DNA of 64,000 bases from Actinomycetospora lutea (GTDB lineage Bacteria > Actinomycetota > Actinomycetes > Mycobacteriales > Pseudonocardiaceae), in contig NZ_JAQZAL010000001.1 of NCBI RefSeq assembly GCF_028737205.1, positions 1 to 64,000 on the forward strand, read 5' to 3'. A model generated the notes under the pieces. It was not told the DNA's origin and searched no databases. It was given only the letters and a program-made list of their open reading frames with translations. Positions 2,017-63,318 of this stretch are shown here, piece by piece. Positions within the stretch are counted from its first letter, which is position 1. Every line of letters begins with the position of its first letter. A program made the translations under genes and the position numbers.

Positions 2017-2979
2017 ATGGCCACCTCGCCGGGTCCCCTGCCCACACCCGTCGTGTCCGTCGCCTGGTTGCGCGACGCGCTGGAGCGCCCGGAGGGAGAC
2101 GAAGCGCAGCGGAGCTCGACCATCAAACGGCGACGTCCCGTGGTGCTCGACGTCCGCTGGACGCTGCGCCCGCCGCCCCGCACCGCGAAGGAGCGCAAGG
2201 CCGCCGCGCGGGAGGACCCGCCGGGTCTGGTCGAGCACGACGCGGGGCACATCCCGGGCGCGGTGTACGTCGACCTCGACACCGAGCTCGCCGGGCCGCC
2301 GGGGCCCGCGGGCCGCCACCCGCTGCCCGACCCCGACGTGCTCGAGGAGACGGTGCAGCGGGCCGGGGCCGACGCCGACTCCGAGATCGTGCTCTACGAC
2401 GGCGGCGACGGGATGGCGTCGGCGCGTGCCTGGTGGGTGCTGCGCTGGGGCGGCCTGAACCCCGGCCAGGTCGCGGTGCTCGACGGCGGCTGGCCGGCGT
2501 GGGTCGCGGCGGGCGGCGAGGTCGCGACCTCCTCGGGCGGTGTGCGCCGGCCCGGCGACCTGCGCCTCACGGCCGGGTCGATGCCGGTGCTCACCGCCGG
2601 GGACGCGGCCGGGATCGCCGCCGACGAGCAGGGCGTGCTGCTCGACGGCCGGGCCGCCGAGCGCTTCCGGGGCGAGACCGAGCCGCTCGACCCGATCGCG
2701 GGCCACGTGCCGGGCGCGGCCAACCTGCCCGCGGCGTCGCTGATCGCCGACGGGCACTGGCGCGACCCCGACGAGGCCGCCGCGCTGCTGGGCCCGCTGG
2801 TCGAGGACGCCGGGGCGGTCGGGGCGTACTGCGGGTCCGGGGTCAGCGCCGCGATGCTCGTGCTCGGGCTCGAGCACGCCGGGCTGCGCCCGCCCGAGGA
2901 CCCCGCCGGCCTCTACGTGGGCAGCTGGTCGCACTGGTGCGGGACGGGGCGTCCCGTCGAGACGGGAGACGCGGGATGA
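2017..2979 (+). CDS. sseA: Two-domain rhodanese sulfurtransferase carrying a repeat insertion
   Basis: Thiosulfate or 3-mercaptopyruvate sulfurtransferase, 320 residues, with two rhodanese domains. Only the C-terminal one has the active-site loop, with Cys272 in YCGSGVSA. The acidic/aromatic pattern HIPGAVYVDLD marks the first domain and HVPGAANLPA the second. The ATG at 2017 begins a protein that enters the first domain quickly (VVSVAWLRDAL). Unusually, residues about 27-38 (GDEAQRSSTIKR) are encoded by a copy of the interspersed repeat at 2094-2124, placed between WLRDALERPE and the conserved VVLDVRW strand without breaking the frame. Another repeat copy starts at the 3' end. Whether the substrate is thiosulfate or mercaptopyruvate cannot be told from sequence. 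Confidence 0.88.
   Translation: MATSPGPLPTPVVSVAWLRDALERPEGDEAQRSSTIKRRRPVVLDVRWTLRPPPRTAKERKAAAREDPPGLVEHDAGHIPGAVYVDLDTELAGPPGPAGRHPLPDPDVLEETVQRAGADADSEIVLYDGGDGMASARAWWVLRWGGLNPGQVAVLDGGWPAWVAAGGEVATSSGGVRRPGDLRLTAGSMPVLTAGDAAGIAADEQGVLLDGRAAERFRGETEPLDPIAGHVPGAANLPAASLIADGHWRDPDEAAALLGPLVEDAGAVGAYCGSGVSAAMLVLGLEHAGLRPPEDPAGLYVGSWSHWCGTGRPVETGDAG
2094..2124 (+). repeat. Interspersed mini-repeat, copy 1 (inside sseA)
   Basis: Begins GGGAGACGAAGCG and ends GCGGAGCTCGACC then ATC. It matches the copies at 47429, 48403 and (reverse strand) 63286. It lies in frame in sseA and encodes GDEAQRSST in a region where family members have a short loop. Confidence 0.8.
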
Positions 2980-3009
2980 GGGGAGCACGCCGGGAGGGGA
3001 GCTCGACCA
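2975..3009 (+). repeat. Interspersed mini-repeat, copy 2 (sseA 3' end)
   Basis: A 35-base copy running from GATGAGGGGAGCACGCCG to GGGGAGCTCGACCA. It is identical to the copy inside dtd at 9239-9273 except for one base. It starts at the last sseA codons (its TGA supplies the sseA stop) and runs into the sseA-acuC gap. It shares the GGAGCTCGACC core with the other copies but has a different left half, so it is a second subtype. Confidence 0.8.
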
Positions 3010-3040
3010 CGGAGAAGGGCGGAGGAACCGGGTCGGTCGG

Positions 3041-3046
3041 TAGGGT
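3041..3046 (+). promoter_or_regulatory. -10 element of a leaderless acuC transcript
   Basis: TAGGGT ends six bases before the acuC GTG and there is no ribosome site between. In actinobacteria a TANNNT box at this distance usually places the transcription start on the start codon itself. Inferred. Confidence 0.45.
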
Positions 3047-3052
3047 CCAGAC

Positions 3053-4252
3053 GTGACCAGCTCCGGTGCGCCGACCGTGGACCCGGCCCGCGTGGCCGTG
3101 GTGTGGGACGAGAGCCTGCTGGGCTACAAGCTCTCGGAGGACCACCCGCTGCACCCGGTGCGCCTCGACCTCACGATGCGCCTCGCGACCTCCCTCGGTG
3201 TGCTCGACGGGATCGAGCCGCTGGTGCCGTCGCCCGCCCCGGACGCGGAGGTCGAGCGCATCCACGTCGCGTCCTACCTCGACGCCGTGCGACGGGCCCC
3301 GTCCCACGGCGACGACCCGCGCCACCAGCTCGGCACCACCGACAACCCGATCTTCGAGGGCATGCACGAGGCGAGCGCGCTGGTGTGCGGCGGCTCGATC
3401 GCCGCCGCCCGCGAGATCGCCGAGGGGCGGGCCGACCGCGCGGTGAACATCGCCGGCGGCCTGCACCACGCGATGTCCGACCACGCCTGGGGCTTCTGCG
3501 TCTACAACGACTGCGCGGTCGCGATCTCGTGGTTGCTCGACCACGGTTACGAGCGCATCTGCTACATCGACACCGACGTGCACCACGGCGACGGCGTGCA
3601 GGCCGCGTTCTACGACGACGACCGGGTGCTGACGATCTCGATGCACCAGCACCCGCGCACGCTGTGGCCGGGCACCGGGTTCGCCTCGGAGCTCGGCAGC
3701 GGGCGCGCGTCGGGCAGCGCGGTGAACCTCGCGCTGCCGCCCGGCACCCGCGACGCCGGTTGGCTGCGCGCCTTCCACGCGGTGGTCCCCGGGCTGCTGC
3801 GGGCGTTCCGGCCGCAGATCCTGGTCACCCAGTGCGGCGTGGACACCCACCACGAGGACCCGCTGGCCGAGCTCTCGCTGACCGTCGACGGGCACCGCGC
3901 GATCTACCGGAGCCTGCGCTCGCTGGCCGCCGAGCACAGCGACGGCAAGTGGCTCGCGCTCGGCGGGGGCGGCTACGGGCTCTTCCGGGCGGTGCCGCGC
4001 TCCTGGACGCACCTGCTGGCCACGGTGCTCGACCGCGACGTCGAGCCACAGCGCACGATCCCGGCGGACTGGACCTCCTACGCGACCGGCAAGACCCGCC
4101 GGCCGCTGCCGACCTCGATGACCGAGGACGCGCCGACCGACTTCGAGCCGTGGGGCGGGTTCACCGAGGTGGAGGTCGACCCGTTCCTGCTCGAGACCCG
4201 CCGGGCGGTGTTCCCGCTGCACGGGCTCGACCCCGCGGACTCCCGCGACTGA
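3053..4252 (+). CDS. acuC: Acetoin utilization protein AcuC, class I-type deacetylase
   Basis: Zn-dependent lysine deacetylase of the histone-deacetylase/AcuC superfamily, 399 residues, cytoplasmic. In Bacillus the homologue removes acetyl groups from acetyl-CoA synthetase. Catalytic motifs are intact: GGLHHAM (about 137-143), the metal-binding DTDVHHGDG (about 174-182), QCGVDTHHEDPL, and the glycine loop LGGGGYG near the end, where the transition-state residue follows the glycines. The GTG at 3053 directly follows a -10 box, so translation is probably leaderless. It is immediately followed by the acetyltransferase at 4286, and acs lies 8 kb away, so writer, eraser and likely substrate are encoded close together. 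Confidence 0.92.
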   Translation: MTSSGAPTVDPARVAVVWDESLLGYKLSEDHPLHPVRLDLTMRLATSLGVLDGIEPLVPSPAPDAEVERIHVASYLDAVRRAPSHGDDPRHQLGTTDNPIFEGMHEASALVCGGSIAAAREIAEGRADRAVNIAGGLHHAMSDHAWGFCVYNDCAVAISWLLDHGYERICYIDTDVHHGDGVQAAFYDDDRVLTISMHQHPRTLWPGTGFASELGSGRASGSAVNLALPPGTRDAGWLRAFHAVVPGLLRAFRPQILVTQCGVDTHHEDPLAELSLTVDGHRAIYRSLRSLAAEHSDGKWLALGGGGYGLFRAVPRSWTHLLATVLDRDVEPQRTIPADWTSYATGKTRRPLPTSMTEDAPTDFEPWGGFTEVEVDPFLLETRRAVFPLHGLDPADSRD

Positions 4253-4285
4253 CCGGAGCAGGCCCCTGACTCCCCGAGGGCGACG

Positions 4286-6976
4286 ATGACCGACACGGCG
4301 GACCCCGACGCCACCACCGCAGAGGTCCGGGCGGTACCCGACGCCCCCTACCCCGCCCACTGGGAGGCCGACGTCGTCGCCTCCGACGGCGCGACGGCGC
4401 ACCTGCGCCCGATCTCCACCGACGACGCCGAGGCCGTGGTCGCGTTCCACGCCCGGCTCTCGGACCGGACCCGCTACTTCCGGTACTTCAGCCCCTACCC
4501 GCAGATCCCCGAGCGCGACCTCAAGAACTTCGTCGAGGTGGATCACCACGACCGGGTCGCCCTGGTCCTCTGGCTCGGGCGGGAGATCATCGCGATCGGG
4601 CGCTACGTGCGCCTCGCGGAGTCGACGGCGGCCGAGGTCGCGTTCGTCGTGCGCGACGACCACCAGGGGCGCGGGCTGGGCTCGATCCTGCTCGAGCACC
4701 TGGCGGCGGCCGCCCTCGAGTGCGGGCTGACGCGGTTCGTGGCCGAGGTGCTCACCGAGAACCACCAGATGGTGCGGGTGTTCCGCGACGCCGGGTTCGA
4801 GGTCAGCCGGGCGCTCGAGGGCTCGACGCTGCACCTGGAGATCGACGTCGCCTCGACCTCGCGCTCCCGCGAGGTGCAGCTCTCCCGCGAGCAGCGCGCC
4901 GAGGCCCGCAGCGTCGCCAACGTGCTCTCGCCGCGCTCGGTGGCGGTCGTGGGCGCCTCGCCGGACCCGACGAAGATCGGTCACGTGGTGTTCGCGAACC
5001 TGCTGCGCGGCGGGTTCACCGGCCCCGTCTACCCGGTGCACCCCGAGGCGCGCTCGGTGCGCGGCGTGCGGGCGTACCCGTCGGTCACCGACATCCCCGA
5101 CGACGTCGACCTCGCCGTGCTCGCGGTGCCGCCCGACGAGGTGCCCGGCGTGTTCGACGCCTGCCTGTCGAAGGGGGTGCGCGCGCTCGTCGTGATCACC
5201 TCGGGCTTCGGCGAGACGGGCCCGACCGGGCTCGCCGCGCAGCGCGAGCTGGTCACCGACGCGCGGGCGAACGGGATGCGGGTGGTGGGGCCGAGCGCGC
5301 TGGGCGTCATCAACCTCGACGCGAAGGTCTCGCTCAACGCGTCGCTGGCGCCGCACCTGCCGCCGCCGGGCCGGGTCGGCTTCTTCTGCCAGTCCGGCGC
5401 GCTGGGCATCCAGATCCTCGCCGCGGCGGCCGACCGCCGCCTCGGGCTCTCGTCGTTCGTGTCCGCCGGCAACCGCGCCGACCTCTCCGGCAACGACCTC
5501 ATGCAGTACTGGGACACCGACCCCGACACCGACGTCGTGCTGCTCTATCTCGAGTCCTTCGGCAACCCGCGCAAGTTCGCCCGGGTCGCCCGCCGGCTGG
5601 CCCGGCGGAAGCCCGTGATCGCGGTGAAGAGCGGCCGGCACGTCGCCGCGGCGCCGGGGCTCGCGGGGAGCGCGCAGCCGATCGACGAGGCCGCGGTGGG
5701 CGCGGTGTTCGACCAGTCCGGGGTCATCCGCGTCGACTCCGTCGACGAGCTCTTCGACGCCGCCCAGCTGCTGGCCCACCAGCCGCTGCCGCCGGGTCCG
5801 CGGGTCGGGATCGTCGGCAACTCGACCGCGCTCGGCATCCTCGCCGCCGACGTCGTGCTCGCCCAGGGACTGTTCCTCGCGCGCGACCCCGTCGACCTGG
5901 GCACGGCCGCGGGGCCGGAGGAGCTGCGGGCCGCGGTGGCCGACCTGCTGGCCGACGACCAGTGCGACTCCCTCGTCGTCGTGTTCGTCCCCGCGATCAC
6001 CACCGACCCGACCGACCACGCCCGCGCGCTGGCCGACGCCGTGCGCGGCGCCGAGAAGCCGGTGGTCTCGACGTTCCTCGCCTCCGAGGGCGTGCCCGAG
6101 GTGCTCACCGTGGCGGATGGGCACGCGGGGCCGGGGCGCGGCAGCATCCCGTCCTACCCGAGCCCGGAGCGCGCGGTGCTCGCCCTGTCCCGGGCGGTGC
6201 GCTACACGCAGTGGCGCTCGCGGCCGGTGGGCGACTTCGTCGTGCCCGAAGGGGTCGACGTCGAGGCCGCGCGGGCGCTCGTGGACGACATCGCGCCGGG
6301 ACCGCGCACGGTGCTCACCGACGAGCAGGCCGACGCGCTCCTGCGCTGCGCCGGGGTGGTAGTCGCCCCGTTCCGCCGGGTCCGCTCGGCGCAGGAGGCC
6401 GTCGACGTCGCGCGGGAGCTCGGCGGCGCGGTGGTGCTCAAGACCGCGGACCGCCGGTGGCGGCACCGCACCGACCTGCGCGGGGTGCACGTGGGGCTCA
6501 CCGAGTCCTCGGCGATCTCCAGCGCCTACGAGCAGCTCGTCGAGCTCTCCGGCGCCGACGAGGTGTACGTCCAGGTGCAGACCCCGCCGGGCATCCCGTG
6601 CGTCGTCGAGATCCGCGACGACCCCTCGTTCGGTTCGCTGGTGTCGTTCGGGCTCGCGGGCGTGGTCGGCGAGCTGCTCGGCGACCGGGCCTACCGGGCC
6701 ACCCCGCTGTCGACGATGGACGCCGCGACCCTGGTGCGCGCGCCCCGGGCGGCGCCGCTGCTCGACGGCTACCGGGGCGCCCGCCGCGCCGACCTACCGG
6801 CCCTCGAGGACCTCGTCCTGCGCATCGGCGTACTCGCCGACGCGGTCCCCGAGATCCGCTCGCTCGTGCTCGACCCCGTCCTCGCCGCGGACCGGGGCGC
6901 GCACGTCACGGGCGTGACGGTGATGCTCGGCCCGCCGCCCGGCCCGCGGGACGCCGGTCCGCGCCGGCTGCGCTGA
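4286..6976 (+). CDS. GNAT plus NDP-forming acyl-CoA-synthetase-like protein acetyltransferase (Pat type)
   Basis: 896 residues. An N-terminal GNAT domain (about 25-185, acyl-CoA loop DDHQGRGLGS near 125) is followed by a CoA-binding Rossmann domain (from about 205, VAVVGASPDPTKIG), succinyl-CoA-ligase-like domains (about 345-640) and an ATP-grasp domain (about 670-890). This order, GNAT first, is that of the Streptomyces protein acetyltransferases related to Salmonella Pat, in which the synthetase half is regulatory rather than catalytic. Expected role: acetylation of Acs and other AMP-forming ligases. Start ATG 4286 has a weak GAGGG upstream. It forms a likely operon with acuC (33-base gap), so opposing activities are co-expressed. 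Substrate is inferred. Confidence 0.87.
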   Translation: MTDTADPDATTAEVRAVPDAPYPAHWEADVVASDGATAHLRPISTDDAEAVVAFHARLSDRTRYFRYFSPYPQIPERDLKNFVEVDHHDRVALVLWLGREIIAIGRYVRLAESTAAEVAFVVRDDHQGRGLGSILLEHLAAAALECGLTRFVAEVLTENHQMVRVFRDAGFEVSRALEGSTLHLEIDVASTSRSREVQLSREQRAEARSVANVLSPRSVAVVGASPDPTKIGHVVFANLLRGGFTGPVYPVHPEARSVRGVRAYPSVTDIPDDVDLAVLAVPPDEVPGVFDACLSKGVRALVVITSGFGETGPTGLAAQRELVTDARANGMRVVGPSALGVINLDAKVSLNASLAPHLPPPGRVGFFCQSGALGIQILAAAADRRLGLSSFVSAGNRADLSGNDLMQYWDTDPDTDVVLLYLESFGNPRKFARVARRLARRKPVIAVKSGRHVAAAPGLAGSAQPIDEAAVGAVFDQSGVIRVDSVDELFDAAQLLAHQPLPPGPRVGIVGNSTALGILAADVVLAQGLFLARDPVDLGTAAGPEELRAAVADLLADDQCDSLVVVFVPAITTDPTDHARALADAVRGAEKPVVSTFLASEGVPEVLTVADGHAGPGRGSIPSYPSPERAVLALSRAVRYTQWRSRPVGDFVVPEGVDVEAARALVDDIAPGPRTVLTDEQADALLRCAGVVVAPFRRVRSAQEAVDVARELGGAVVLKTADRRWRHRTDLRGVHVGLTESSAISSAYEQLVELSGADEVYVQVQTPPGIPCVVEIRDDPSFGSLVSFGLAGVVGELLGDRAYRATPLSTMDAATLVRAPRAAPLLDGYRGARRADLPALEDLVLRIGVLADAVPEIRSLVLDPVLAADRGAHVTGVTVMLGPPPGPRDAGPRRLR

Positions 6977-7003
6977 CCGGCCGGGCGCCTCGAAGGAGTG
7001 ACC

Positions 7004-7561: not shown

Positions 7562-7651
7562 GGAGAGAAAGCCGGAAGACCGGGCCGGCCCCCGACCGTC
7601 CCGGTCTCCCGTCGCCGACGGGCGCTCGAGGCCCGTCTCGTGGTCATTGGC

Positions 7652-7693
7652 CGGGCCGGGTGACCCCACGTGAGTGGGGTCACATCCGGCCCG
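7652..7693. terminator. Hairpin between the lipoprotein gene and sigB
   Basis: Perfect 10-bp stem GTGACCCCAC/GTGGGGTCAC with a GTGA loop, extended by a further 8-bp pairing (CGGGCCGG/CCGGCCCG) across a two-base bulge. It lies between convergent genes, so it could stop transcription from both sides. No T tract, as is usual in this GC range. Confidence 0.6.
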
Positions 7694-7796
7694 TGCGGTT
7701 CAGACTGCCGTTACCGGCGAGTCACCGTCAATGCGTCGACCCGGTGGCCGCTGCGGGACCGATCCGGTCACGCAGCGTGCCGCGGGAGGTTCGCGC

Positions 7797-8807
7797 TCAG
7801 CTCGCGGCGTAGGCCTTGAGCCGGCGCGCCCGGTCGCCGTCGCGGAGCTTGACCATGACCTCGCGCTCGATCTGGCGCACCCGCTCGCGCGAGAGGCCGA
7901 ACTGGCGCCCGATCTGGTCGAGCGTGCGCGGCTGCCCGTCGTCGAGGCCGTAGCGCAGGCGGATGACGTTCTGCTCGCGGTCGTCGAGCGTCGCGATGAC
8001 GCGGCGCATGTCGTCGTGGAGCAGGCCGGAGATGACCGTCGACTCGGCGTCGGTGGCCTCGGCGTCCTCGATGAAGTCCCCGAGCGGGGCCTCCTCCTCG
8101 GACCCGACCGGCATGTCCAGGCTGACCGGGTCGCGGCTGTGATCGAGCAGGTCGGCGACCTTCTCGGGCGTCAGCCCCGACTCCTCCGCCAGCTCCTCGT
8201 GGGTGGCCTCGCGGCCGAGGGTCTGGTGCAGGTCGCGCTTGATGCGGGCCAGCTTGTTGACCTGCTCGACCAGGTGGACGGGCAGGCGGATGGTGCGGGC
8301 CTGGTCGGCCATGCCGCGGGTGATGGCCTGGCGGATCCACCACGTCGCGTAGGTCGAGAACTTGAAGCCCTTGGTGTAGTCGAACTTCTCCACGGCCCGG
8401 ATCAGACCCAGGTTCCCCTCCTGGATCAGGTCCAGCAGGGGCATGCCGCGTCCGGTGTACCGCTTGGCCAGCGAGACCACGAGGCGCAGGTTGGCCTCGA
8501 GCAGGTGCGCGCGGGCACGGCGGCCGTCGCGGGCCACCGCGCGGAGGTCGGCGGCGCGCTGCGGCTCGAGGTCGGGAGCGTCCGCGGAGCCGGACTCGTC
8601 GAGCAGATGCGCTGCGTACACACCGGCCTCGATGCGCTTCGCCAGCTCCACCTCGTCGGCGGCGGTCAGTAGCGCGGTCTTTCCGATACCGTTGAGGTAG
8701 ACGCGGACGAGGTCCGCCGCAGGGCCCTGGGCGTCGAGGTCGCTCTCAGCAGGCACCGAGGGCAGAGCAGCCTCGGACCCGGTCTGCGGTGCGAGTGTCG
8801 CCGTCAT
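7797..8807 (-). CDS. sigB: Sigma-70 family group 2 RNA polymerase sigma factor
   Basis: 336 residues with region 1.2 (about 29-60), region 2 with the RNAP-binding and -10-reading segment ([20 protein letters not shown] through [12 protein letters not shown]), region 3, and region 4 helix-turn-helix ([20 protein letters not shown]). It lacks the long acidic N-terminus of the housekeeping factor at 36902, so it is the group 2 SigB/HrdB-like paralogue used in stress and stationary phase. ATG 8807 has GGGAGGAAGCA just before it, a strong ribosome site; the open frame extends further upstream but without one. Neighbouring ideR and galE reproduce part of the mycobacterial sigB-ideR group. Confidence 0.93.
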
Positions 8808-8984
8808 TGCTTCCTCCCTGCGCGGCGCGAAGGTGCTGGGGCGCCGCGTCACTAGGTCGAACGCGCCGGGGTCGGCGTTCGTTCCCGCCGGGGCCGTCCG
8901 GTCACGGGTGCCCGCTGTGTCGTGCGTGACGCATGGCGGGCGCCACTCGCGGGCAACGCGGGACGCGAGTGAAGATCTCGGCGT

Positions 8985-9464
8985 TCAGACGTCGACGAGC
9001 ACCGTGAAGGGCCCGTCGTTGCTCGACTCAACGCGCATGTCGGCGCCGAACTTCCCGGTGGCGACGGGTGCGCCGCGCTCGCGCAGCGCGGCCACGACGG
9101 CGTCCACGGCGGCACGGGCGGCGTCCGGTGCCGCGGCCGCCGACCAGGACGGACGGCGGCCCTTGCGCGTGTCCCCGTAGAGCGTGAACTGGCTGACGAC
9201 GAGCAGGCCGGCGCCGGTGTCGGCGCAGGAGACGTAGCGATGAGGGGAGCACGCCGAGAGGGGAGCTCGACCATCGGGGTGTGCGCGCTCGTCGCGCAGG
9301 ACGCGCAGCTCGTGGAGCTTGCGGGCCATGACGCCCGGCGCCTCGGGGCCGTCGTCGCGGTGCACGCCGAGCAGCACGAGCAGCCCGGGCTCCTCGATCG
9401 CCCCGACGACCTCGTCCCCGACGACCACCCGGGCCCACGCGACCCGGCTGACCACCGCCCTCAC
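8985..9464 (-). CDS. dtd: D-aminoacyl-tRNA deacylase with in-frame repeat insertion
   Basis: Removes D-amino acids (and glycine from mischarged tRNA-Ala) from tRNA. 159 residues, against about 141-147 for the family. Both active-site signatures are present: SQFTLYGDTRKGRRPSW in the middle and the Gly-cisPro region NDGPFTVLV at the end. The extra length lies between LRDERAHP and the conserved LLVVSQFTLYG, where residues about 64-76 (DGRAPLSACSPHR) come from a repeat copy on the opposite strand. The GTG at 9464 overlaps the stop of the upstream methyltransferase as GTGA, indicating translational coupling. The active-site blocks are complete, so function is probably retained. Confidence 0.88.
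   Translation of the reverse strand: MRAVVSRVAWARVVVGDEVVGAIEEPGLLVLLGVHRDDGPEAPGVMARKLHELRVLRDERAHPDGRAPLSACSPHRYVSCADTGAGLLVVSQFTLYGDTRKGRRPSWSAAAAPDAARAAVDAVVAALRERGAPVATGKFGADMRVESSNDGPFTVLVDV
9239..9273 (+). repeat. Interspersed mini-repeat, copy 3 (inside dtd, opposite orientation)
   Basis: 35 bases from GATGAGGGGAGCACGCCG to GGGGAGCTCGACCA, one mismatch from copy 2. It is read antisense by dtd and keeps the reading frame open. Confidence 0.85.
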
Positions 9465-18921: not shown

Positions 18922-18927
18922 CGTCGT

Positions 18928-36901: not shown

Positions 36902-38281
36902 CTAGTCCAGGTAGTCGCGCAGGACCTGCGAGCGCGACGGGTGGCGCAGCTTCGACATCGTCTTCGACTCGATCTGACGGATGCGCTCGCGCGTCACGCC
37001 GTAGACCTGACCGATCTCGTCGAGGGTGCGCGGCTGGCCGTCGGTGAGGCCGAAGCGCAGGCGCACCACGCCGGCCTCGCGCTCCGAGAGCGTCGCGAGG
37101 ACCGACTGCAGCTGGTCCTGCAGCAGGGTGAAGGAGACCGCGTCGACGGCCACCACGGCCTCGGAGTCCTCGATGAAGTCGCCGAGCTGCGAGTCGCCCT
37201 CGTCGCCGATGGTCTGGTCGAGGCTGATGGGCTCCCGGGCGTACTGCTGGATCTCCAGCACCTTGTCCGGGGTGATGTCCATCTCCTTGGCGAGCTCCTC
37301 GGGCGTGGGCTCGCGGCCCAGGTCCTGGAGCAGCTCGCGCTGGATGCGACCGAGCTTGTTGATGACCTCGACCATGTGCACCGGGATGCGGATGGTGCGC
37401 GCCTGGTCGGCCATCGCGCGGGTGATGGCCTGGCGGATCCACCACGTCGCGTAGGTCGAGAACTTGTAGCCCTTGGTGTAGTCGAACTTCTCGACCGCGC
37501 GGATCAGACCGAGGTTGCCCTCCTGGATCAGGTCCAGGAACGCCATGCCGCGGCCGGTGTAGCGCTTGGCCAGCGAGACCACGAGGCGCAGGTTGGCCTC
37601 GAGGAGGTGGGACTTGGCGCGCTCGCCGTCACGGACGATCCACCGCAGGTCGCGCCGCATCTGCGTCGCGAGCTCCTGCTGGGCCTCGGCGACCTTGCGC
37701 AGCCGCTCGGAGGCGTAGAGGCCGGCCTCGATGCGCTTGGCGAGCTCGACCTCCTCCTCGGCGTTGAGCAGCGCCACCTTGCCGATCTGCTTGAGGTAGG
37801 CGCGGACCGAGTCGGCGGACGCGGTGAGCTCGGCGTCCTTGCGCGCCTGGCGCAGCGCCTCGGACTCCTCCTCGTCCCAGACGAAGTCGCCGGACTTCTT
37901 GTCCTCCTCCGTCGGCTCCTCGGTCTCGACCTCCGCGGCCTCGACCACCTCGGCGCCCAGCACGACGACGTCCTCGGTGAGCTCGGAGCTCGCGGCCTCG
38001 AGCTCGGGGCCCTCGAGCCCCTCGAGGTCGGCACCCTCGGGTCCGTCGGCGGCGTCGACCTCCTCGGCGCCCTCGGGCGCCTCGGGATCGGTCTTGGCCG
38101 CGCCCTTGCCCTTCGCGGGCGCCTTCTTGGCGCCCTTGGCGGAACGCGTCGCGGTCTTCTTCGCCGGCGCCTCGGTGGCATCCGGAGCAGCGACCACACC
38201 GACCGGGCCTCCCGCGGCGGCTGCTTCGGGGTCGGCGGCGTCGGCGACGCGGCGTCGGGTTGCGGACTTTGCGGCTGCCAC
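36902..38281 (-). CDS. sigA: Principal RNA polymerase sigma factor
   Basis: 459 residues. The lysine/alanine-rich then strongly acidic N-terminal region (about 1-145) replaces a classical region 1.1. Region 1.2 begins [16 protein letters not shown]; region 2 contains [20 protein letters not shown] and the -10-reading [12 protein letters not shown]; region 3 [19 protein letters not shown]; region 4 helix-turn-helix [20 protein letters not shown], ending DYLD. Length and ending match mycobacterial SigA and Streptomyces HrdB. GTG 38281 start. A TACAAT -10 box at 38411-38416 suggests a leader of about 120 bases. Divergent from suhB, as in mycobacteria. Confidence 0.96.
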
Positions 38282-45326: not shown

Positions 45327-47423
45327 GTGTCCAAGCTCGCCACGGCGACCAAGCGCCTCGTGCTCGGCCTGCCGTTCCGCAGCGACTCGCTGCAGGGCAC
45401 CCTGCTGCGCAAGCGCATCGCCCTGCCGGTGTTCGCCTCCGACGCCCTGTCGTCGGTGGCGTACGCCCCGCAGGAGGTGCTGATCACCCTGTCCCTGGCG
45501 GGGCTGGGCGCCTACGCCCTCTCCCCGTGGGTCGGGGCCGCGGTGATCGTCGTGCTGATCACCGTGATCGTCAGCTACCGCCAGAACGTGCACGCCTACC
45601 CCTCCGGGGGCGGCGACTACGAGATCGCCACGGTCAACCTGGGCCGCTATGCCGGGCTCGTCGTGGCGAGCGCCCTGCTCGTGGACTACACCCTCACCGT
45701 CGCGGTCTCGGTCTCCTCGGCGGCGGACAACCTCGGCGCGCTGGTGCCGTTCGTCGGCGACCACAAGGTGCTCTTCGCCGTCGCGGCGATCCTCGTGCTC
45801 ACCGCCATCAACCTGCGCGGGGTGCGGGAGTCGGGGATCACCTTCGCCATCCCGACCTACTGCTTCATCGTCTGCATGGTCGGGATGATCGTCTGGGGCG
45901 GGGTGCAGCTCGCGCTCGGCCAGGACCTCGTCGCTCCGAGCGCCGGCTTCGGCGTGCGGCCCGAGGGCGGGGGCGACTCCACGGACGACCTCACCCAGCT
46001 CGCCCTGGTGTTCCTGGTGCTGCGCTCGTTCACCCAGGGCTGCGCGGCGCTGACCGGGGTCGAGGCCATCAGCAACGGCGTCCCCGCCTTCCGCAAGCCC
46101 AAGTCGCGCAACGCGGCCACCACGCTCGCGATGCTCGGGCTGATCTCGGTGTTCCTCTTCTCCGGGATGATCGCGCTGGCCCGCTCGTCGGGCGTGGTCA
46201 TGGCCGAGCGGCCGGCCGAGCAGCTCGTCGGCGCCCCGCCGGGCTACCGCCAGGAGACGCTGATCGCGCAGGTCGCCCGCACGGTGTTCGACGGCTTCCC
46301 GCCCGGCTTCTGGGCCGTGACGATCTTCACGGCCCTCATCCTCGTGCTGGCCGCCAACACGGCCTTCAACGGCTTCCCGGTGCTCGGTTCGATCCTCGCC
46401 CAGGACCGCTACCTGCCCCGCCAGCTGCACACGCGCGGCGACCGGCTGGCCTTCTCGAACGGGATCCTGTTCCTGGCGTTCTTCGCGGTCGTGCTGGTCG
46501 TCGGCTTCGGCGCCGAGGTCACCGCGCTGATCCCGCTCTACACGGTCGGCGTGTTCGTGTCGTTCACGCTGAGCCAGTCCGGGATGGTCCGGCACTGGAC
46601 GCGCCTGCTGGGCACCGAGCGCGACGCGGGGGAGCGGGCGCGGCTGCGGCGCTCCCGCTGGATCAGCGGCTTCGGCACGGCGATGACCGGCACCGTGCTG
46701 CTCGTCGTGCTCGTGACGAAGTTCGTGGTCGGCGCCTGGATCGCGATCGTCGCCGGGGTGCTGGCGTTCCTCATGATGCTGTCGATCCGCAAGCACTACG
46801 ACCGGGTCAGCGAGGAGATCGCCGCCCCGGCGGTCATGACGAGCACGCTGCCCAGCCGCAACCACGCGATCGTGCTGGTCTCGCGGCTGCACATGCCGAC
46901 GCTGCGGGCGGTCGCCTACGCCCGCGCGACCCGGCCCGACGTGCTCGAGGCGCTGACGGTCAACGTCGACGACGCCGACACCCGCACGCTCGTCGCGGAG
47001 TGGGAGTCGCGGGACATCCCGGTGCCGCTCAAGGTCGTCGAGTCGCCCTACCGCGAGATCACCAAGCCGATCCTGCAGTACGTCAAGCGGATCCGGACCG
47101 ACAACCCCCGCGACGTGGTCACCGTGTTCATCCCCGAGTACGTGCTCGGGCGCTGGTGGGAGCAGCTGCTGCACAACCAGAGCGCGCTGCGCCTCAAGGG
47201 CCGGCTGCTCTTCCAGCCCGGCGTCATGGTCGTCAGCGTGCCGTGGCAGCTGGAGTCGTCGAAGCGGGCGGCCGCCCGCCGGCCCCCGGGCGCACCCGGC
47301 TCGGCGCGCCGCGGCTACGAGCCCCCGACGGGCGCCGGCGCGACCGCCTCCGCCCCGACCGACGCCGCCCCGGCCCCGCCACCCCGGAAGTCGCGGCCCG
47401 AGCCGGCGGGGCCGCCGCGATGA
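45327..47423 (+). CDS. KimA/KUP-type potassium importer of the APC superfamily
   Basis: 698 residues: about 12 transmembrane helices (about 25-470) and a cytosolic C-terminal domain (about 490-655), plus a proline/alanine-rich tail. Blocks FASDALSSVAYAPQEVLITL in two pieces, SYRQNVHAYPSGGGDYEIA, ALTGVEAISNGVPAF, NTAFNGFPVLGSILAQDRY and HNQSALRLKGRLLF match the Bacillus KimA (YdaO) layout, a proton-coupled K+ importer. Homologous to mycobacterial Rv2690c, generally listed as an amino-acid permease. Adjacent trkA/trkB support potassium. GTG 45327 directly follows a -10 box. Its stop overlaps the next ATG. Confidence 0.85.
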   Translation: MSKLATATKRLVLGLPFRSDSLQGTLLRKRIALPVFASDALSSVAYAPQEVLITLSLAGLGAYALSPWVGAAVIVVLITVIVSYRQNVHAYPSGGGDYEIATVNLGRYAGLVVASALLVDYTLTVAVSVSSAADNLGALVPFVGDHKVLFAVAAILVLTAINLRGVRESGITFAIPTYCFIVCMVGMIVWGGVQLALGQDLVAPSAGFGVRPEGGGDSTDDLTQLALVFLVLRSFTQGCAALTGVEAISNGVPAFRKPKSRNAATTLAMLGLISVFLFSGMIALARSSGVVMAERPAEQLVGAPPGYRQETLIAQVARTVFDGFPPGFWAVTIFTALILVLAANTAFNGFPVLGSILAQDRYLPRQLHTRGDRLAFSNGILFLAFFAVVLVVGFGAEVTALIPLYTVGVFVSFTLSQSGMVRHWTRLLGTERDAGERARLRRSRWISGFGTAMTGTVLLVVLVTKFVVGAWIAIVAGVLAFLMMLSIRKHYDRVSEEIAAPAVMTSTLPSRNHAIVLVSRLHMPTLRAVAYARATRPDVLEALTVNVDDADTRTLVAEWESRDIPVPLKVVESPYREITKPILQYVKRIRTDNPRDVVTVFIPEYVLGRWWEQLLHNQSALRLKGRLLFQPGVMVVSVPWQLESSKRAAARRPPGAPGSARRGYEPPTGAGATASAPTDAAPAPPPRKSRPEPAGPPR

Positions 47424-48688
47424 CCGCGGGGAGACGAAGCGAAGCGGAGCTCGACCCATCGATGCCGATCGACTGGACCGACCGCCTCCTCGAGGTCGAC
47501 GTCGGCGCCGTCGCCCACGGCGGGCACTGCGTCGCGCGCCACGAGGGGCGGGTGGTGTTCGTGCGCCACGCCCTGCCCGGCGAGCGGGTCCGCGCGGTGG
47601 TCACCGAGGACGGCGGCGGCTCGTTCTGCCGGGCGGACGCGGTGGCGGTGCTGACCGGATCGCCGGACCGCGTCGAGCCCGCGTGCGCCTGGGCCGGCCC
47701 CGGCGGGTGCGGCGGCTGCGACTGGCAGCACGCGACGCCCGCCGCGCAGCGGGCGCTCAAGGCCACGGTGATCGCCGAGCAGCTCGCGCGGCTGGCCGGC
47801 GTCGAGCGCGACGTGGTGGTCGAGGAGCTGCCCGGCGGCCCGCTGGAGTGGCGCACGCGGATGCGGATGGCGGTCACCGACGACGGGCGCCCGGGCCTGC
47901 GCGCCCACCGCAGCCACGAGGTGCTGCCCGTCGGCGACTGCCCGATCGCCGCGCCGGGCGCGCTGACGCCGGTGCTGGAACGGGCGTGGACGCCGACCGC
48001 GGAGGTCGAGATCGTCCGCGACGCGGCGGGCGAGGTGCACGCCGCCGAGCTGTTCGAGGGCGCCCGGCACCCCGAGCTGGGCAGCGGCACCGCCCACGAG
48101 CGGGCCGCGGGCCGCGACTGGGCGCTGCCCCCGGAGGCGTTCTGGCAGGTGCACCCGCACGCCGCCGACGCCGTCGTCGACGCGGTGCTCGAGGGCGTCG
48201 GGGAACTCGCGCCGGGCGCCTGCGCCTGGGACCTCTACGGCGGCGCCGGCCTCATCGCCGCCCCGCTGGCGCAGCGCGTGGGCGCCGGGGGCCGGGTGGT
48301 GCTCGTCGAGAACGACCCGGCGGCCGCCGCGGCGGCCGCGGAGTGCCTGGCCGACCTGCCCGCGGTGCAGGTGGTGCGCGGGCGGGTGGAGAAGGTGCTC
48401 GCGGGAGACGGAGCGCAGCGGAGCTCGACCCATCGGGGCGGTCTGCCCGGGCCGCCCGACGTGATCGTTGCCGACCCGCCGCGCAAGGGTCTCGGCCGCG
48501 GTCTCGCCGGCGCGCTCGCGCAGCACGGCGCCGCGCGGATCGTGCTCGTGGCCTGCGATCCCGCGGCGCTCGCCCGCGACGTCGCCGCGCTCGCCGAGCA
48601 CGGCCACCGGCTCGGGGCGCTGCGCGCCTTCGACGCCTTCCCGATGACCCACCACGTCGAATGTGTCGCAACCCTCCTCGCGCCGTGA
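47420..48688 (+). CDS. TRAM-domain 23S rRNA (uracil-5-)-methyltransferase-like enzyme with two repeat insertions
   Basis: 422 residues, TrmA/RumA family. N-terminal TRAM domain (about 16-75), iron-sulfur cysteines in CAWAGPGGCGGCDWQH (about 91, 99, 102), SAM motif DLYGGAGLIAAPL (about 274-286), ADPPRKGLG and the catalytic Cys in VACDPAALARD (about 379). Homologous to mycobacterial Rv2689c. Two oddities come from the interspersed repeat: residues 4-14 (GRRSEAELDPS) precede the natural start MPIDWTDRLLEVDV, and residues about 329-338 (GDGAQRSSTH) interrupt the segment between the AdoMet fold and the DPPRKG motif. ATG 47420 overlaps the importer stop; ATG 47462 could be the ancestral start. Confidence 0.88.
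   Translation: MTAGRRSEAELDPSMPIDWTDRLLEVDVGAVAHGGHCVARHEGRVVFVRHALPGERVRAVVTEDGGGSFCRADAVAVLTGSPDRVEPACAWAGPGGCGGCDWQHATPAAQRALKATVIAEQLARLAGVERDVVVEELPGGPLEWRTRMRMAVTDDGRPGLRAHRSHEVLPVGDCPIAAPGALTPVLERAWTPTAEVEIVRDAAGEVHAAELFEGARHPELGSGTAHERAAGRDWALPPEAFWQVHPHAADAVVDAVLEGVGELAPGACAWDLYGGAGLIAAPLAQRVGAGGRVVLVENDPAAAAAAAECLADLPAVQVVRGRVEKVLAGDGAQRSSTHRGGLPGPPDVIVADPPRKGLGRGLAGALAQHGAARIVLVACDPAALARDVAALAEHGHRLGALRAFDAFPMTHHVECVATLLAP
47429..47460 (+). repeat. Interspersed mini-repeat, copy 4 (start of the RNA methyltransferase)
   Basis: Starts GGGAGACGAAGCG and ends GCGGAGCTCGACC then CATC; two bases before ATG 47462. It separates the coupled ATG 47420 from the conserved protein start. Confidence 0.85.
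48403..48434 (+). repeat. Interspersed mini-repeat, copy 5 (inside the RNA methyltransferase)
   Basis: GGGAGACGGAGCG followed by the GCGGAGCTCGACC core and CATCGG. Same orientation and nearly the same sequence as copy 4, 970 bases apart, in frame. Confidence 0.85.
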
Positions 48689-54726: not shown

Positions 54727-54733
54727 CACCGGC

Positions 54734-57195: not shown

Positions 57196-57386
57196 GAAGG
57201 AGGCAGTCTGCCGCGCGTCGCCCGCCTCCGCGCGAGATCCGGGCGAACTCGCGGGCGTGTCGCGCACCGATCCACGGTCCGTGGTCGGGTCACGGACCCC
57301 ACCGGCGTCACCGGCGGGGTCCGTGGACCGCACGACCGAGGCCGACCGCCCCGCAGCGGCGGTGGTCGACCTGCGTGCCCTCCCGC

Positions 57387-58103: not shown

Positions 58104-58539
58104 GTCGAGTACCTCCTAGAAGTCGGTCTTGCCCCCCGACATTCACGCACCGGGCCCCCGAACCATCGACCGCGCCGCCGATCGGACGAGGAAGTGCGTG
58201 CGAGAGAAGATATCCCCCCGGGCGAGTTAACGAGAGCATCAGGGCCAACTTCGCTCGGTGGAGTTTCCTGCGTTACGCGGTCGCGGTCACCCTTTGGAGT
58301 GGACAGACTCCTCGAAATCGTCTCGCAGTGACACTCGGTGTAACTGCGGCTACGGAGAGTGCCGAGTAGCGCCGACCGCTCCAGGGTCGCTGCAACCAAC
58401 GCCCCAACGCCTCCGCGTGACGGTCGCAGTGGCAGCGGGCTGATCGGACGTGACCCTGTGCATCCCCCTGAGAGCGAGGGATGACCTGCGAAAGTGCGAA
58501 AGTAATTCCGACAGCGATACCGGTGGTACCGGGAGAATG
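58104..58539. other. 436-base AT-richer intergenic region
   Basis: Between the LuxR regulator (start) and DUF3000 (stop), both on the minus strand, so it is the regulator's promoter region. Markedly less GC-rich than its surroundings. Contains GATATC and GTTAAC steps near 58210-58230, tandem GCGAAAGT-GCGAAAGT at 58488-58503 and a TACCGG-TGG-TACCGG repeat near 58517-58533. No confident -35/-10 pair and no credible gene. Confidence 0.45.
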
Positions 58540-59145
58540 TCAGCCGGAACGGCCGGCGCGACGAGCACCGAGCGTCGTGACGCCCTCCGGCGGAAGTCCC
58601 GCCGCGATGGCCAGGACGGCCGCGAACGCGTCACCGTGAGCCGTCAGGATCTCTTCGGTGGGTGTCCACGACGCGCGCAGCTCGAGGTCGTTCGCGTGGG
58701 TCGGCCCGCTGATGTCGCCGAAGCGGACCGAGGCCGTCTGGGTCACCGTGCCGCCCAGCGCCGTCCACGCCGCGCCCGAGTCGTCGAGCGCGCCGGTGAG
58801 CCACGACCACGCGACCTCGGGCAGCATCGGGTCGCCCGCGTGCTCCGGGTCGAGCTCGGCGCGTACGAACGACACCACGCGCAACGTGCCGTCCCAGGCG
58901 TCCTGGCCGTCCGGGTCGTGCAGGAGCACCAGGCGCCCCGTGACCACGACCTCGGCGTCGTCGACCTCGCCCGTGCCGGGCGGCAGGGGCGTCGCCAGCA
59001 CCTCGGCGCTCCACGCCGCCGAGTACGGCGCCAGGCGCTGCGGCGGGCGCATCGTGCGCAGCTCGATCTCCGCGCGCGTCTGCAGCTCGCCGAGGGAGTC
59101 CACCGCGCGCCGGAACGTCTCGGGGTGGGTGGTGGGCGCCGTCAC
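58540..59145 (-). CDS. DUF3000 family protein
   Basis: 201 residues, soluble, mixed alpha/beta: [20 protein letters not shown] at the N-terminus, then [30 protein letters not shown] and [20 protein letters not shown]. Homologous to mycobacterial Rv2680; function unknown. GTG 59145 lies seven bases behind TACTGT, so it is probably translated without a leader. It neighbours hemE divergently, as in related genomes. Confidence 0.88.
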
Positions 59146-59152
59146 CTCGATG

Positions 59153-59158
59153 ACAGTA
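59153..59158 (-). promoter_or_regulatory. -10 element of a leaderless DUF3000 transcript
   Basis: TACTGT on the minus strand followed by CATCGAG and then GTG 59145. Spacing places the transcription start at the start codon. Confidence 0.45.
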
Positions 59159-59250
59159 GGCCGAACGGGTTCCGACGTGTACCTCCCACGCCGGGGCACC
59201 CCGGTCGGGCGCGGGCGCGGGGGCGGGGTGCGGGGGCCGGTGCGGGCGAG

Positions 59251-59341
59251 GGCGTCCCTCGCTGCGTCCCACGCACTCAAGGGGTCCCTCGCTCCGGTCA
59301 CCACGCATCCGGGGCGTCCCTCGCTCCGATCACGGCGCCGC
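59251..59341. repeat. Three imperfect tandem 30-base repeats upstream of hemE
   Basis: GTCCCTCGCT recurs at 59254, 59284 and 59316, each within a 30-32 base unit whose second half ends in CACGCA or similar (CCCACGCACTCAA, CACCACGCATCC, then CGATCACGG). Located between the DUF3000 start and hemE. Read on the minus strand the units carry GGAGCGAGGGAC, loosely related in style to the interspersed repeats. Confidence 0.75.
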
Positions 59342-59370
59342 CGCGGGGGCCGTGGGAGGATGGACCCATC

Positions 59371-60441
59371 ATGAGCAGGGCAGGGACCGTGGGCATCGAT
59401 CAGCACCGTCGTGACCTCCCCAGGTCGCCCTTCCTGGCCGCCGCGCGGGGCGAGCGGCCCGCGCGCCACCCCGTCTGGTTCATGCGCCAGGCCGGGCGCT
59501 CGCTGCCCGAGTACCGGAAGGTCCGCCAGGGCACCGCGATGCTCGAGGCCTGCCTGACCCCGGACCTCGCCTGCGAGATCACGCTGCAGCCGGTGCGGCG
59601 CTACGGGGTCGACGCGGCGATCCTCTTCTCGGACATCGTGGTGCCGCTGAAGGCCGCCGGGGTCGGGGTCGACATCGTCACCGGTACCGGGCCCGTCGTG
59701 GAGCGCCCGGTGCGCTCGGCCGCCGACGTCGCGGCCCTGCCGGCGCTCGACGCCGACGGTGTCGCCCCGGTCGCCGAGGCGGTCCGCCTGCTCGTCCGCG
59801 AGCTCGGCGACACCCCGCTCATCGGGTTCGCCGGCGCGCCCTTCACGCTCGCCTCGTACCTCGTCGAGGGGGGCCCGAGCCGCAACCACGAGCGCACCAA
59901 GGCGCTGATGCACGCCGAGCCCGACACCTGGCACGCGCTGTGCTCCGCGCTGGCCGACACCACGCTGACCTTCCTGCGCGCCCAGATCGCCGCCGGCGTC
60001 GACGCCGTGCAGCTCTTCGACTCCTGGGCCGGGGCGCTCTCCGAGCGCGACTACCGCGAGCTGGTCATGCCGCACTCGGCGCGGGTGCTGGCCGGCCTCG
60101 CCGACGCCGGCGTGCCGCGCATCCACTTCGGGGTCGGCACCGGCGAGCTGCTCGGCGCGATGGGCGAGGCGGGCGCCGACGTCGTCGGGGTCGACTGGCG
60201 GGTGCCGCTCGACGTCGCCGCCGGGCGGGTCCCGCCCGGTACGGCCCTGCAGGGCAACCTCGACCCCGCGCTGCTCTTCGCCGGCCCGGACGTCGTCGAG
60301 CGCGAGGTCCGGCGGATCCTCGCCGAGGGAGCGGCCGCCCCGGGCCACGTGTTCAACCTCGGCCACGGCGTCCTGCCCGAGACCGATCCCGACGCGCTGG
60401 CGCGGGTGGTCGACCTCGTGCACGGGGTCGACCCGGCGTGA
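59371..60441 (+). CDS. hemE: Uroporphyrinogen decarboxylase
   Basis: 356 residues; converts uroporphyrinogen III to coproporphyrinogen III. N-terminal signature [17 protein letters not shown] (about 31-47) with the catalytic arginines, ILFSDIVVP (catalytic Asp), [17 protein letters not shown] and the C-terminal [16 protein letters not shown] 59371 has GGGAGGATGG upstream. Its stop overlaps the cgoX start as GTGA. Homologous to mycobacterial Rv2678c, with the same downstream order apart from the DUF2252 insertion. Confidence 0.96.
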
Positions 60442-61883
60442 CCCGCGTCCTCGTCGTCGGCGGCGGGGTGTCCGGGCTCGCCGCGGCCCACCGCCTGCGC
60501 ACGCTGCTCGGGCCCGACGCGGACGTCGTCGTCGTGGAGGCCGCCCGCGCGCTCGGCGGCAAGCTCTCCGCCCTCGAGATCGGCGGCCGCCGGGTCGACG
60601 TCGGCGCCGAGGCGTTCCTGGCGCGGCGCCCCGAGGCCGTCGGGCGCATCGCCGAGCTCGGCCTGGGCGGCGATCTCGTGCACCCCGGCCGGGCGGCGTC
60701 GTCGCTGCAGGTCGGCGGGCGCGGGGTGGCGCTGCCCCCGCGCACGGTGATGGGGGTGCCCGGCGACCCCGACGTCGCCGCGCCCGCGCTGTCGCCGGCC
60801 GGGCTCGCCGCGCTGCGCGAGGACCGCCCGGGGGCCTGGGAACCGGGCGGGGACGTCGCGGTGGGCGCACTGGTGCGGGAACGGCTGGGCGACGAGGTCG
60901 CCGACCGGCTCGTCGACCCCCTGCTCGGCGGCGTCTACGCCGGGCGCGCCGACGGGCTGGGCCTGCGCGCCACCGTGCCCGCGCTGGCCGCCGCGCTCGA
61001 CGCCGACCCGCGCTCGCTGCTCGCCGCCGCCCGCTCCTGCCTGCCCGCCGCGCCGGTCGAGGGGGCGGCGCCGAGCCCGGTGTTCGGGACCCTGCGCGGC
61101 GGTCTCGCCGACCTGCCCGCCACCCTCGCGCTCGCCGCCCGCGCCGACCTGCGCCTGGGCCGCACGGTCACCGGCCTCGAGCGCACCCCCACGGGCTGGC
61201 GCGCCACCATCGCCGATGCCGCCCCGATCGACGCCGACGCGGTGGTGCTCGCCGTGCCCGCCCCGGGCCTGCGCCGCCTGCTCGCCGACCACGCGCCCGG
61301 CGCCGCCCGGGCCGCCGGGGAGATCGAGCTGGCGTCCACCGCGCTCGTCGTCCTCGCCCTGCCCGCCGCCGCGGCGGCCCCGCTCGCCGGACGCTCCGGC
61401 GTGCTCGTCGGGGCGGGGGAGCGGCGCCCCGACGGCCTGCCCTGGACGATCAAGGCGGCCACCTTCAGCTCCGAGAAGTGGCCCCACCTCGCGCCCGGCC
61501 CCGCGTCCCGTCGAGACCCAGACGCCACCGCGGTGCTCCGGCTCTCGATCGGCCGCCACGGCGACGCGGGCTCGCTCGCCGCGCTGCGCCGTGACGACGA
61601 CGACCTGGTCAGCGCGGCCCGCAGCGACCTCGCCGCGCTCACCGGTATCGAGGAGGTCCCCGTCGAGAGCGCGGTCGTGCGCTGGCCCGGCGGGCTGCCC
61701 CAGTACGGCGTCGGGCATCTCGACCGCGTCGCCGCCCTCGAGGGCGGGGTGGCCGCCCTGCCCGGGCTCGCGGTCGCCGGGGCGACGCTGCACGGGGTCG
61801 GCATCCCGGCCTGCCTGGCCACCGCCGACGCCGCGGCCCGCCGCGTCGCCGACCACCTCGCGGCGGCGGCGCACCGGCCCTGA
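60438..61883 (+). CDS. cgoX: Coproporphyrinogen III oxidase (HemY/HemG type)
   Basis: 481-residue FAD enzyme oxidising coproporphyrinogen III to coproporphyrin III in the haem pathway of actinobacteria and Firmicutes. FAD motif [17 protein letters not shown] (about 4-20), acidic [27 protein letters not shown] in pieces, [15 protein letters not shown], and the C-terminal FAD contact [18 protein letters not shown]. The presence of hemQ downstream supports the coproporphyrin route over the protoporphyrin one. GTG 60438 overlaps the hemE stop. Tail ends AAAAHRP. Confidence 0.93.
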
Positions 61884-61918
61884 GCGGAGGCCCGGCGTGA
61901 CCAGGGCACACTGCGCCC

Positions 61919-63283
61919 ATGACCGACCTCGCCCCCGACCTCGTCACCGCGCTCGGGGCCCACGACGACGAGGAACGCACCCGCGTCGTCGTCGACACGC
62001 TCGCGGAGGCGTTCGCCGACCTGATGACGTCGGCGCCCGCGGCGTTCCGCAACAAGTTCCGCAAGATGGCCGCCGAGCCGTTCGCGTTCTATCGCGGCAG
62101 CGCGCCGCTGTACTACGCCGACGTCGCCCGCCTCGACGACCCGTGGGTCGACGAGCGCACGCGGCGGGTCTGGATCCAGGGCGACCTGCACGCCGAGAAC
62201 TTCGGCACCTACCTCGACGGCGACGGCGTGCTCGTCTTCGACGTCAACGACTTCGACGAGGCCTACGTGGCGCCGTGGACGTGGGACCTGCGGCGCCTGG
62301 TCGCGAGCGTCGCCCTGCTCGGCTGGTCGAAGGCGTTCTCCGACGCGGACATCGACGCGCTGAACGCCGCCTACCTGCGGGCCTACCTCGGCGCCGTGCG
62401 CTCGTTCTCCGGCGGCTCGGGCGAGCAGGAGTTCGCGCTGACCCGCCGCACCACCGACGGCCCGATCCACCACGCCCTGCAGCGCTCGCGGGAGAGCAGC
62501 CGGCGGGCCCTGCTCGACGGGCTGACCGAGATCGAGGGCGAGGACCGGGTGTTCCGCGCCGGGCCGGGCGTGCGCCGCCTCGACGACGACGAGTGCGCCG
62601 AGGTCGTCGCCGCCTACGAGGCCTATCTCGACACGATCCCGCCCGCGAAGCGCTGGCCCGGGCCGGCGTACGCCGTGCACGACGTCGTCGGGCGCAGCGG
62701 CTTCGGCATCGGCAGCGCGGGCCTGCCCGCCTACAACGTGCTCATCGAGGGGCCGACCGAGGCGCTCGACAACGACATCGTCCTGTCGATGAAGCAGGCC
62801 GTGCGCGCCGCGCCGAGCCGCGTGGTCGACGACCCCGAGATCGCGGCCTCGTTCCACCACCACGGGCACCGCACCGCCCTGTCGCGCCGGGCGCTGCAGG
62901 CGCACGCCGACCGGTTGCTCGGCTGGACCGAGATGCGCGGCGTGGGCTACGTCGTCAGCGAGCTCTCGCCGTACGAGAACGACCTCGACTGGGACGACCT
63001 CACCGAGCCCCGGGAGCTGCGCGACGTCCTGCACCACCTCGGGCGGGCCACCGCGCGGGCGCACTGCGTCTCCGACGCCGACGCCGATCAGGGCCTGGTC
63101 ACGGCGCAGGTCGAGGACGCGATCCTGGCCGTGGTCGGCGACCGGGAGGACGCGTTCGTCGAGGACCTCGTCGCCTTCGGCCGGGGCTACGCCGGCGTGG
63201 TGCGCGACGACCACCGCCGCTTCGTCGAGGCCTTCCGCGCCGACCGTGTGCCGGGCGTCTCGAGCACGGAGGAATCGCTCTAG
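61919..63283 (+). CDS. DUF2252 family protein, kinase-like fold
   Basis: 454 residues. [20 protein letters not shown] (about 84-103) and [22 protein letters not shown] in pieces (about 106-127) resemble the catalytic and metal-binding loops (HxxN, DxD) of aminoglycoside-phosphotransferase-like kinases, and [17 protein letters not shown] begins the domain. Activity unproven. ATG 61919, no clear ribosome site. It is inserted between cgoX and hemQ, genes that adjoin each other in mycobacteria, with 35 and 56 base gaps. It may be unrelated to haem. Confidence 0.87.
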
Positions 63284-63285
63284 TC

Positions 63286-63318
63286 GACGGGTCGAGCTCT
63301 CGCTCCGCTTCGTCTCCC
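63286..63318 (-). repeat. Interspersed mini-repeat, copy 6 (upstream of hemQ)
   Basis: On the minus strand GGGAGACGAAGCGGAGCG followed by AGAGCTCGACCCGTC, a slightly altered copy. It fills most of the DUF2252-hemQ gap, directly after the DUF2252 stop. Confidence 0.8.

Follow-up and report, generated by a model that had tools for sequence, protein, structure and literature searches.

The best-known mobile repeats lying in frame inside working proteins are those of Rickettsia. In the available excerpts of PMC2229807 and PMC3733652, the Rickettsia palindromic elements (RPE) are interspersed between genes and in frame inside conserved protein genes, with sizes of 105–146 bp and long stem-loops (PMC2229807). 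RPE-4 and RPE-6 are short and are classed with the CGTC-tagged repetitive extragenic palindromes (REP), for which no transposase is known and of which intragenic copies occur (excerpt of PMC3733652). According to the same excerpt, the GTAG- and CGTC-tagged REPs are 20–40 bp long, reach high copy numbers, show complementary changes in their arms and are in some cases intragenic; they possess an end tag and a 5–13 bp stem, and are mainly organized as head-to-head dimers. The main text of PMC3733652 contains neither "actinobacteria" nor "mycobacteri". Here we describe a short repeat found six times in the first 64,000 nucleotides of contig NZ_JAQZAL010000001.1 of Actinomycetospora lutea (assembly GCF_028737205.1; this whole stretch is called the window). 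It is probably a non-autonomous mobile mini-repeat which, in the manner of the Rickettsia elements, inserts peptides in frame into proteins. The likeness to RPE, already pointed out in the first-pass annotation, extended to the way of working (in-frame insertion into conserved proteins, with empty orthologous sites in relatives) and not to membership. In contrast to RPE, the core measures 28 bases, the inserted length is about 36 bp net, and no significant fold was obtained. The sequence is also different, many copies form head-to-tail arrays, and an end tag, as in the short-stemmed RPE-4 and RPE-6, was absent, the 5' end being GGGAG or GGGAC and the CGTC of the other strand being internal, not terminal. 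The mycobacterial interspersed repetitive units (MIRU) are also small actinobacterial repeats, with tandem arrays, often between operon genes; they are longer and mainly intergenic. Among the titles and abstract beginnings listed from the open-licence literature, no paper was found describing the repeat, or such an element in Actinomycetospora or Williamsia; papers listed as containing the letters of the repeat were, judging by title and abstract, on other subjects.

Two types of the repeat were observed. The type A core consists of 28 bases, GGGAGACGNAGCGNAGCGGAGCTCGACC, forming an imperfect palindrome whose centre is exactly GCGNAGC. Type B is approximately 46 bases long, GGGAGACGNAGCNATNAGGGGAGCACGCCGATAGGGGAGCTCGACC, and its left end lies about 11 bases to the left of the type A start; the left arm GGGAGACG and the right arm are common to both types, and the middle of type B is longer. 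The two type B copies (2975 and 9239) were one mismatch apart over 35 bases, and three of the type A copies (2094, 47429 and 48403) were exact. The window copies and the genes in which they lie are as follows:
1909–2979, plus strand: sseA-like rhodanese/mercaptopyruvate sulfurtransferase gene, start uncertain
2094–2121, plus strand: type A core in sseA, sense, encoding GDEAQRSST, net insertion 36 bp
2964–3008, plus strand: type B copy at the sseA 3' end, giving the stop codon TGA at 2977–2979
8985–9455, minus strand: dtd, D-aminoacyl-tRNA deacylase gene, with a Pfam Tyr_Deacylase match
9227–9272, plus strand: type B copy in dtd, antisense to the gene and in frame, net insertion 54 bp
47420–48688, plus strand: TRAM-domain RNA (uracil-5) methyltransferase gene
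47429–47456, plus strand: type A core in the N-terminal codons of the methyltransferase, frame 0, GRRSEAELDPS
48403–48430, plus strand: type A core inside the methyltransferase, sense frame 2 (AGDGAQRSSTHRGG), net 36 bp
63290–63318, minus strand: type A copy with one extra base and AGAGCTCGACC, intergenic, directly 3' of a DUF2252 gene

The first-pass annotation had announced six copies in two subtypes, four of them in frame inside sseA, dtd and the methyltransferase. Every copy was recovered, the fourth type A copy being placed at 63290–63318 on the minus strand, the subtypes proved real, and all four reading frames were intact. Its estimate of the repeat size (31–35 bp) had to be corrected, since the core has 28 bases and an insertion adds about 36 bases net. 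It had also judged the copies too similar and too scattered for chance, and the counts agreed with this. With up to one mismatch GGAGCTCGACC matched 22 times in the window (five exact) against 5.67 expected, and 22 or more matches were reached in none of 100 shuffles.

Over the whole genome of the window (6.53 Mb in 106 contigs, handle G000), type A was present at 121 places with up to three mismatches and type B at 14 places; the type A pattern read backwards gave no match. The search for further copies suggested along with the six window copies thus yielded more than 100. At up to two mismatches, type A occurred in 18/18 Actinomycetospora genomes (three of which are less than 90% complete), with 1 to 146 copies each, and in 0/43 genomes from other genera. 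The difference between relatives was extreme, with 146 copies in G009 versus one in G005, the flanks at the compared sites being 87–98% identical. Among the matches listed in a scan of named genome contigs, at least 89 stretches belonged to Actinomycetospora, at least 22 to Williamsia and at least one to Mycobacterium pinniadriaticum. Seven Williamsia genomes (including two W. muralis strains, and one record flagged as unverified) contained 25, 52, 55, 35, 52, 25 and 22 type A copies. In a draw of 397 genomes from the order, a sample and not a census, seemingly devoid of Williamsia, four genomes matched: two Actinomycetospora genomes, and two from a single other genus that had one copy each; no genome from outside Actinomycetospora with many copies was in the draw. 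The absence from other genera was thus borne out in the 43 genomes and in all but two of the non-genus genomes of the draw, while the presence in Williamsia shows that the repeat is not confined to one genus. Viral contigs contained no exact match, and a 47-base query remained unmatched in plasmids or phages, so that carriage by a phage or plasmid was set aside.

The comparison of orthologues with and without the insertion, proposed as a check in the first-pass annotation, revealed empty relatives at the sseA, dtd, methyltransferase and 63290 sites. The 36-base in-frame insert of sseA at 2094 was missing in the 12 congeners aligned (five others were unaligned there); the net length was 36 at nine of the ten loci passing the filters and 34 at the tenth. 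All 17 congeners could be placed at the dtd site (9227). Eleven were empty, each exactly 54 bases shorter than the window. G011 possessed a type-A-like insert with four mismatches, which makes the site 36 bases longer than when empty, and G017, G002, G015, G013 and G014 a third repeat, GGGCGAGCGNAGCGACGGGG, with net lengths to the window of 24, 24, 24, 27 and 23, the last being no multiple of 3 by the alignment measure used. With repeats of other kinds at this very position in six of the 17 congeners, dtd is a hot spot. Alignment of the window protein with the E. coli enzyme needed 13 extra residues in the repeat stretch. At 48403 the site was empty in G011, G005 and G012 with a net length of 36; G009 had a degenerate copy, and locus L138 was repeat-free with a net length of 27. 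Reverse type A copies were present at the 63290 site in the window, G009 and G012, and in neither G011 nor G005. The 47429 site was empty in G011 (net 27 bp), the sole clean comparison, four other places being too rearranged. This copy falls in the methyltransferase N-terminus only if translation begins in the ATGA overlap (47420), a start supported by G011; the gene caller used here chose a start downstream of the repeat. In the aligned congeners, the place of the type B copy at the 3' end of sseA (2964–3008) was empty or otherwise filled. The stop codon at 2977–2979 provided by this copy alters the C-terminus of the SseA protein. The sseA 3' spacer of G015 (L099) contains a long inverted repeat of about 100 bases, CACGAGGGGACTCTTCGTAC...GTACGAAGGGTCCCCTCGTG, a possible miniature inverted-repeat transposable element (MITE).

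Over all loci compared, an orthologous place of some kind was available for 59 of 185 copy clusters, a figure which includes copies common to several species and some comparisons in which one genome was taken twice. Requiring an empty partner and a flank identity of at least 78% left 31 listings. For single copies inside genes, the commonest net length was 36 (seven sense, one place being counted twice, and one antisense), the others being 39, 35 and 30. Intergenic listings were scattered from 2 to 56, and take in the window copies at 2094 and 47429 since the gene caller starts those genes too late. In Williamsia soli, a gene with 33 extra in-frame bases encoding GDEAKRSSTVN was found; these bases were missing in 6/6 other Williamsia genomes, the nearest relative being 92% identical across the region. 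As many relatives were empty, the direction of the events was probably insertion and not precise loss. Chance or ordinary conserved coding sequence could be rejected on the grounds of the shuffles, the reversed control, the presence in 18/18 Actinomycetospora genomes against 0/43 others, and the filled and empty orthologues. The CGG triplet was enriched at bases 37–39 (18% versus 5.4%), and is no duplication because it was uncorrelated with the CGG found at the left edge (both together in 17 cases, versus 15.5 expected).

The location of the copies was established with genes called by a simple codon-based caller (91% coding). The 78 copies of the window genome with up to one mismatch formed 71 clusters, of which 37 were sense, 13 antisense, 20 intergenic and one at a gene edge. 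Genes were struck less than expected, yet hold most copies (50/71 clusters). More than 60 bases away from gene ends, sense clusters outnumbered antisense ones by 22 to 8 (p 0.016), and frame 2 accounted for 15 of these 22 (p 0.0009, one-sided). In-frame copies had been reported for both orientations. Both do occur, with a preference for the sense strand and, in Actinomycetospora, for frame 2. This frame encodes GDxAxRSST. Examples of proteins with this peptide are a biotin carboxylase, an acyl-CoA dehydrogenase and a molybdopterin enzyme, the last with one change in it; the frame 0 peptide was found instead in an MgsA-like ATPase. A T at base 14 would create a TAG stop in frame 2. It was present in 0/209 Actinomycetospora copies, whatever their location, and in Williamsia in 0/44 copies of the examined loci and in 15/149 places among the matches listed. 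The pattern fits selective filtering in Actinomycetospora, or could be a matter of lineage history. Arrays were head-to-tail, and in Actinomycetospora their spacing was a multiple of 3 in 31/31 cases in genes. The spacing was dropped as evidence of frame selection because 14/15 intergenic arrayed copies also followed multiples of 3.

The two arms of the repeat varied together. In 267 copies, base 5 was changed in 11 and base 24 in 11; ten changes were shared, all C5/G24. In 48 type B copies, base 42, which matches base 24, was changed in ten, all C5/G42. When base 5 had to differ from G and any base was allowed at 6, 23 and 24, 221 places were recovered from 25 genomes; the tallies were made on the 150 of the 221 places that were listed. 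Among these 150, the arms were CG/CG in 75, CA/TG in 57, CA/CG in 10 and others in 8; C5 went with G24 in 144/147, G6 with C23 in 78/80 and A6 with T23 in 59/69. These counts include related copies and arrays, which lack independence, but the three arm types each occurred in many genomes. The co-varying change was present in both subtypes, with one such copy in Williamsia. Pairs 5–24 and 6–23 were the only ones demonstrated by co-variation. We infer from this that the element is a palindrome or a hairpin; the rest of the hairpin, with G-A pairs and the GCGNAGC centre, is a reading of the sequence. Symmetric half-sites for a dimer would give the same co-variation. A structure formed by RNA of the top strand did not fit, since at pair 6–23 the A-C intermediates outnumbered G-T ones (10 versus 2). 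In the excerpt of PMC4686876, the GCGAAGC DNA mini-hairpin melts at 78 °C and resists nucleases. The d(GCGNAGC) mini-hairpins have the same centre as type A, and are treated there as a synthetic motif, versus the centre of a genomic repeat here.

We propose that the 28-base imperfect palindrome, together with about 8 variable bases, for an inserted length of about 36, would be copied to new genomic places, where it would sometimes amplify on site into tandem arrays. Copies would be retained where the harm is small, i.e., between genes, or in genes when the frame is kept and the peptide tolerated. The arms may be read by a trans-acting factor, either as a hairpin or as symmetric half-sites. The hairpin form would probably be single-stranded DNA in which G-A pairs flank a central GCGNAGC mini-hairpin. 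Several observations weigh against this model. In energy folding, type A did not outperform its shuffles in forming a hairpin (z 0.16 to 0.88), and the type B top strand was only slightly better (z −0.57, −0.80); because of this lack of support from folding, the structure is drawn from co-variation alone. Three of the 13 type B copies changed at base 5 kept base 42. The target site duplication that a MITE of an insertion sequence would leave was not visible in the filled/empty pairs, and an 8 bp duplication was discarded as the source of the eight extra bases. Several filled/empty pairs had an unclear net length, four sense listings giving 1, 1, 15 and −8, and the gene calls rest on the simple caller described above. 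In Williamsia, 45 copies were distributed as 27 intergenic, two at gene edges, 16 sense (seven in frame 2 and nine in frame 1) and none antisense, so that frame 2 was not favoured. Finally, no mobiliser was found among the enzyme families searched in the 18 Actinomycetospora genomes. The Pfam domain Y1_Tnp was detected in none (control positive in 5/14). A reverse transcriptase was found in 4/18 and not in the copy-richest G009 and G014, and IS110 in 14/18 and not in G011, which has 75 copies. Both were out of step with copy number, and the three families were discarded as movers. The window genome itself contains three reverse transcriptase genes (G000:C11:45404, C43:25310 and C18:177452).

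The absence of Y1_Tnp bears directly on the idea that the repeat is a REP element moved by a REP-associated tyrosine transposase (RAYT), as in gamma-Proteobacteria. The size, the palindromic arms with compensatory changes and the presence of both genic and intergenic copies would suit such an element, but the conserved GTAG or CGTC end tag is missing, base 5 itself varies, folding gives no 5–13 bp stem and the arrays are not head-to-head dimers. This explanation is very unlikely and largely refuted, barring an enzyme too diverged for Pfam or lying in assembly gaps. Identical half-sites (GA/GA, CA/CA, CG/CG) describe the co-variation as well as a hairpin does, and the repeat could then be the selected binding site of a dimeric nucleoid or regulatory protein. 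The folding results speak for this. However, many sites are not shared by relatives (a few are common to several species), the number of copies per genome ranges from 1 to 146, and a needed site, found inside genes in most clusters of the window genome, would hardly come and go. We consider a selected binding site unlikely; a dimeric half-site may instead be how the mobiliser recognises the repeat.

The missing mobiliser and target duplication would also be accounted for if repeat-derived fragments were captured by chance during end joining, or by template switching at repeats, without a dedicated enzyme. This is improbable, to much the same degree as the selected binding site, as the inserted length in genes clusters at 36, the first and last bases are the same among copies, and the arm pairs stay complementary, which random capture need not require. 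Of all the alternatives, the most doubtful is the spread by selection of a useful GDxAxRSST peptide tag. The prevalence of frame 2 in the interior sense clusters and the behaviour of base 14 would be expected for a selected tag. But 20/71 clusters are intergenic and 13 antisense, other frames occur, Williamsia uses frame 1 as often, the host proteins are unrelated, and intergenic and antisense copies are free of T at base 14 as well; the bias is explained by the loss of insertions that do harm.

Returning to the mobile mini-repeat, it is conceivable, although we hold this only tentatively, that it represents a new class of single-strand DNA-hairpin repeats in Actinobacteria, characterized by G-A pairs and GCGNAGC, a non-Y1 mover and related families (A, B and GGGCGAGCGNAGCGACGGGG) using the same protein loops, as in dtd. 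Such repeats would be a steady source of in-frame peptides and would have been horizontally transferred between Actinomycetospora and Williamsia. The group offers named cultured strains, several genomes in which copies number more than 100, empty sites that are clean and arms that co-vary, so that what moves tiny repeats, and how often repeats seed new protein segments, are testable here; the pair G005 and G009 constitutes a natural comparison for finding the mover. In practice, the repeats interfere with the comparison of orthologues and the calling of gene starts in Actinomycetospora and Williamsia.

The third family, GGGCGAGCGNAGCGACGGGG (G017 L260, G039 L259), has the same GCGNAGC centre and was present, with up to one mismatch, in 18/18 Actinomycetospora genomes at 2–98 copies. 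At the same threshold, 19 copies in period-30 arrays were found in G039, which belongs to another family, and six in G043. Inside the window, two 300-base stretches (8158–8457 and 37260–37559), located in two minus-strand genes 29 kb apart, were 84% identical, which suggests a gene duplication.

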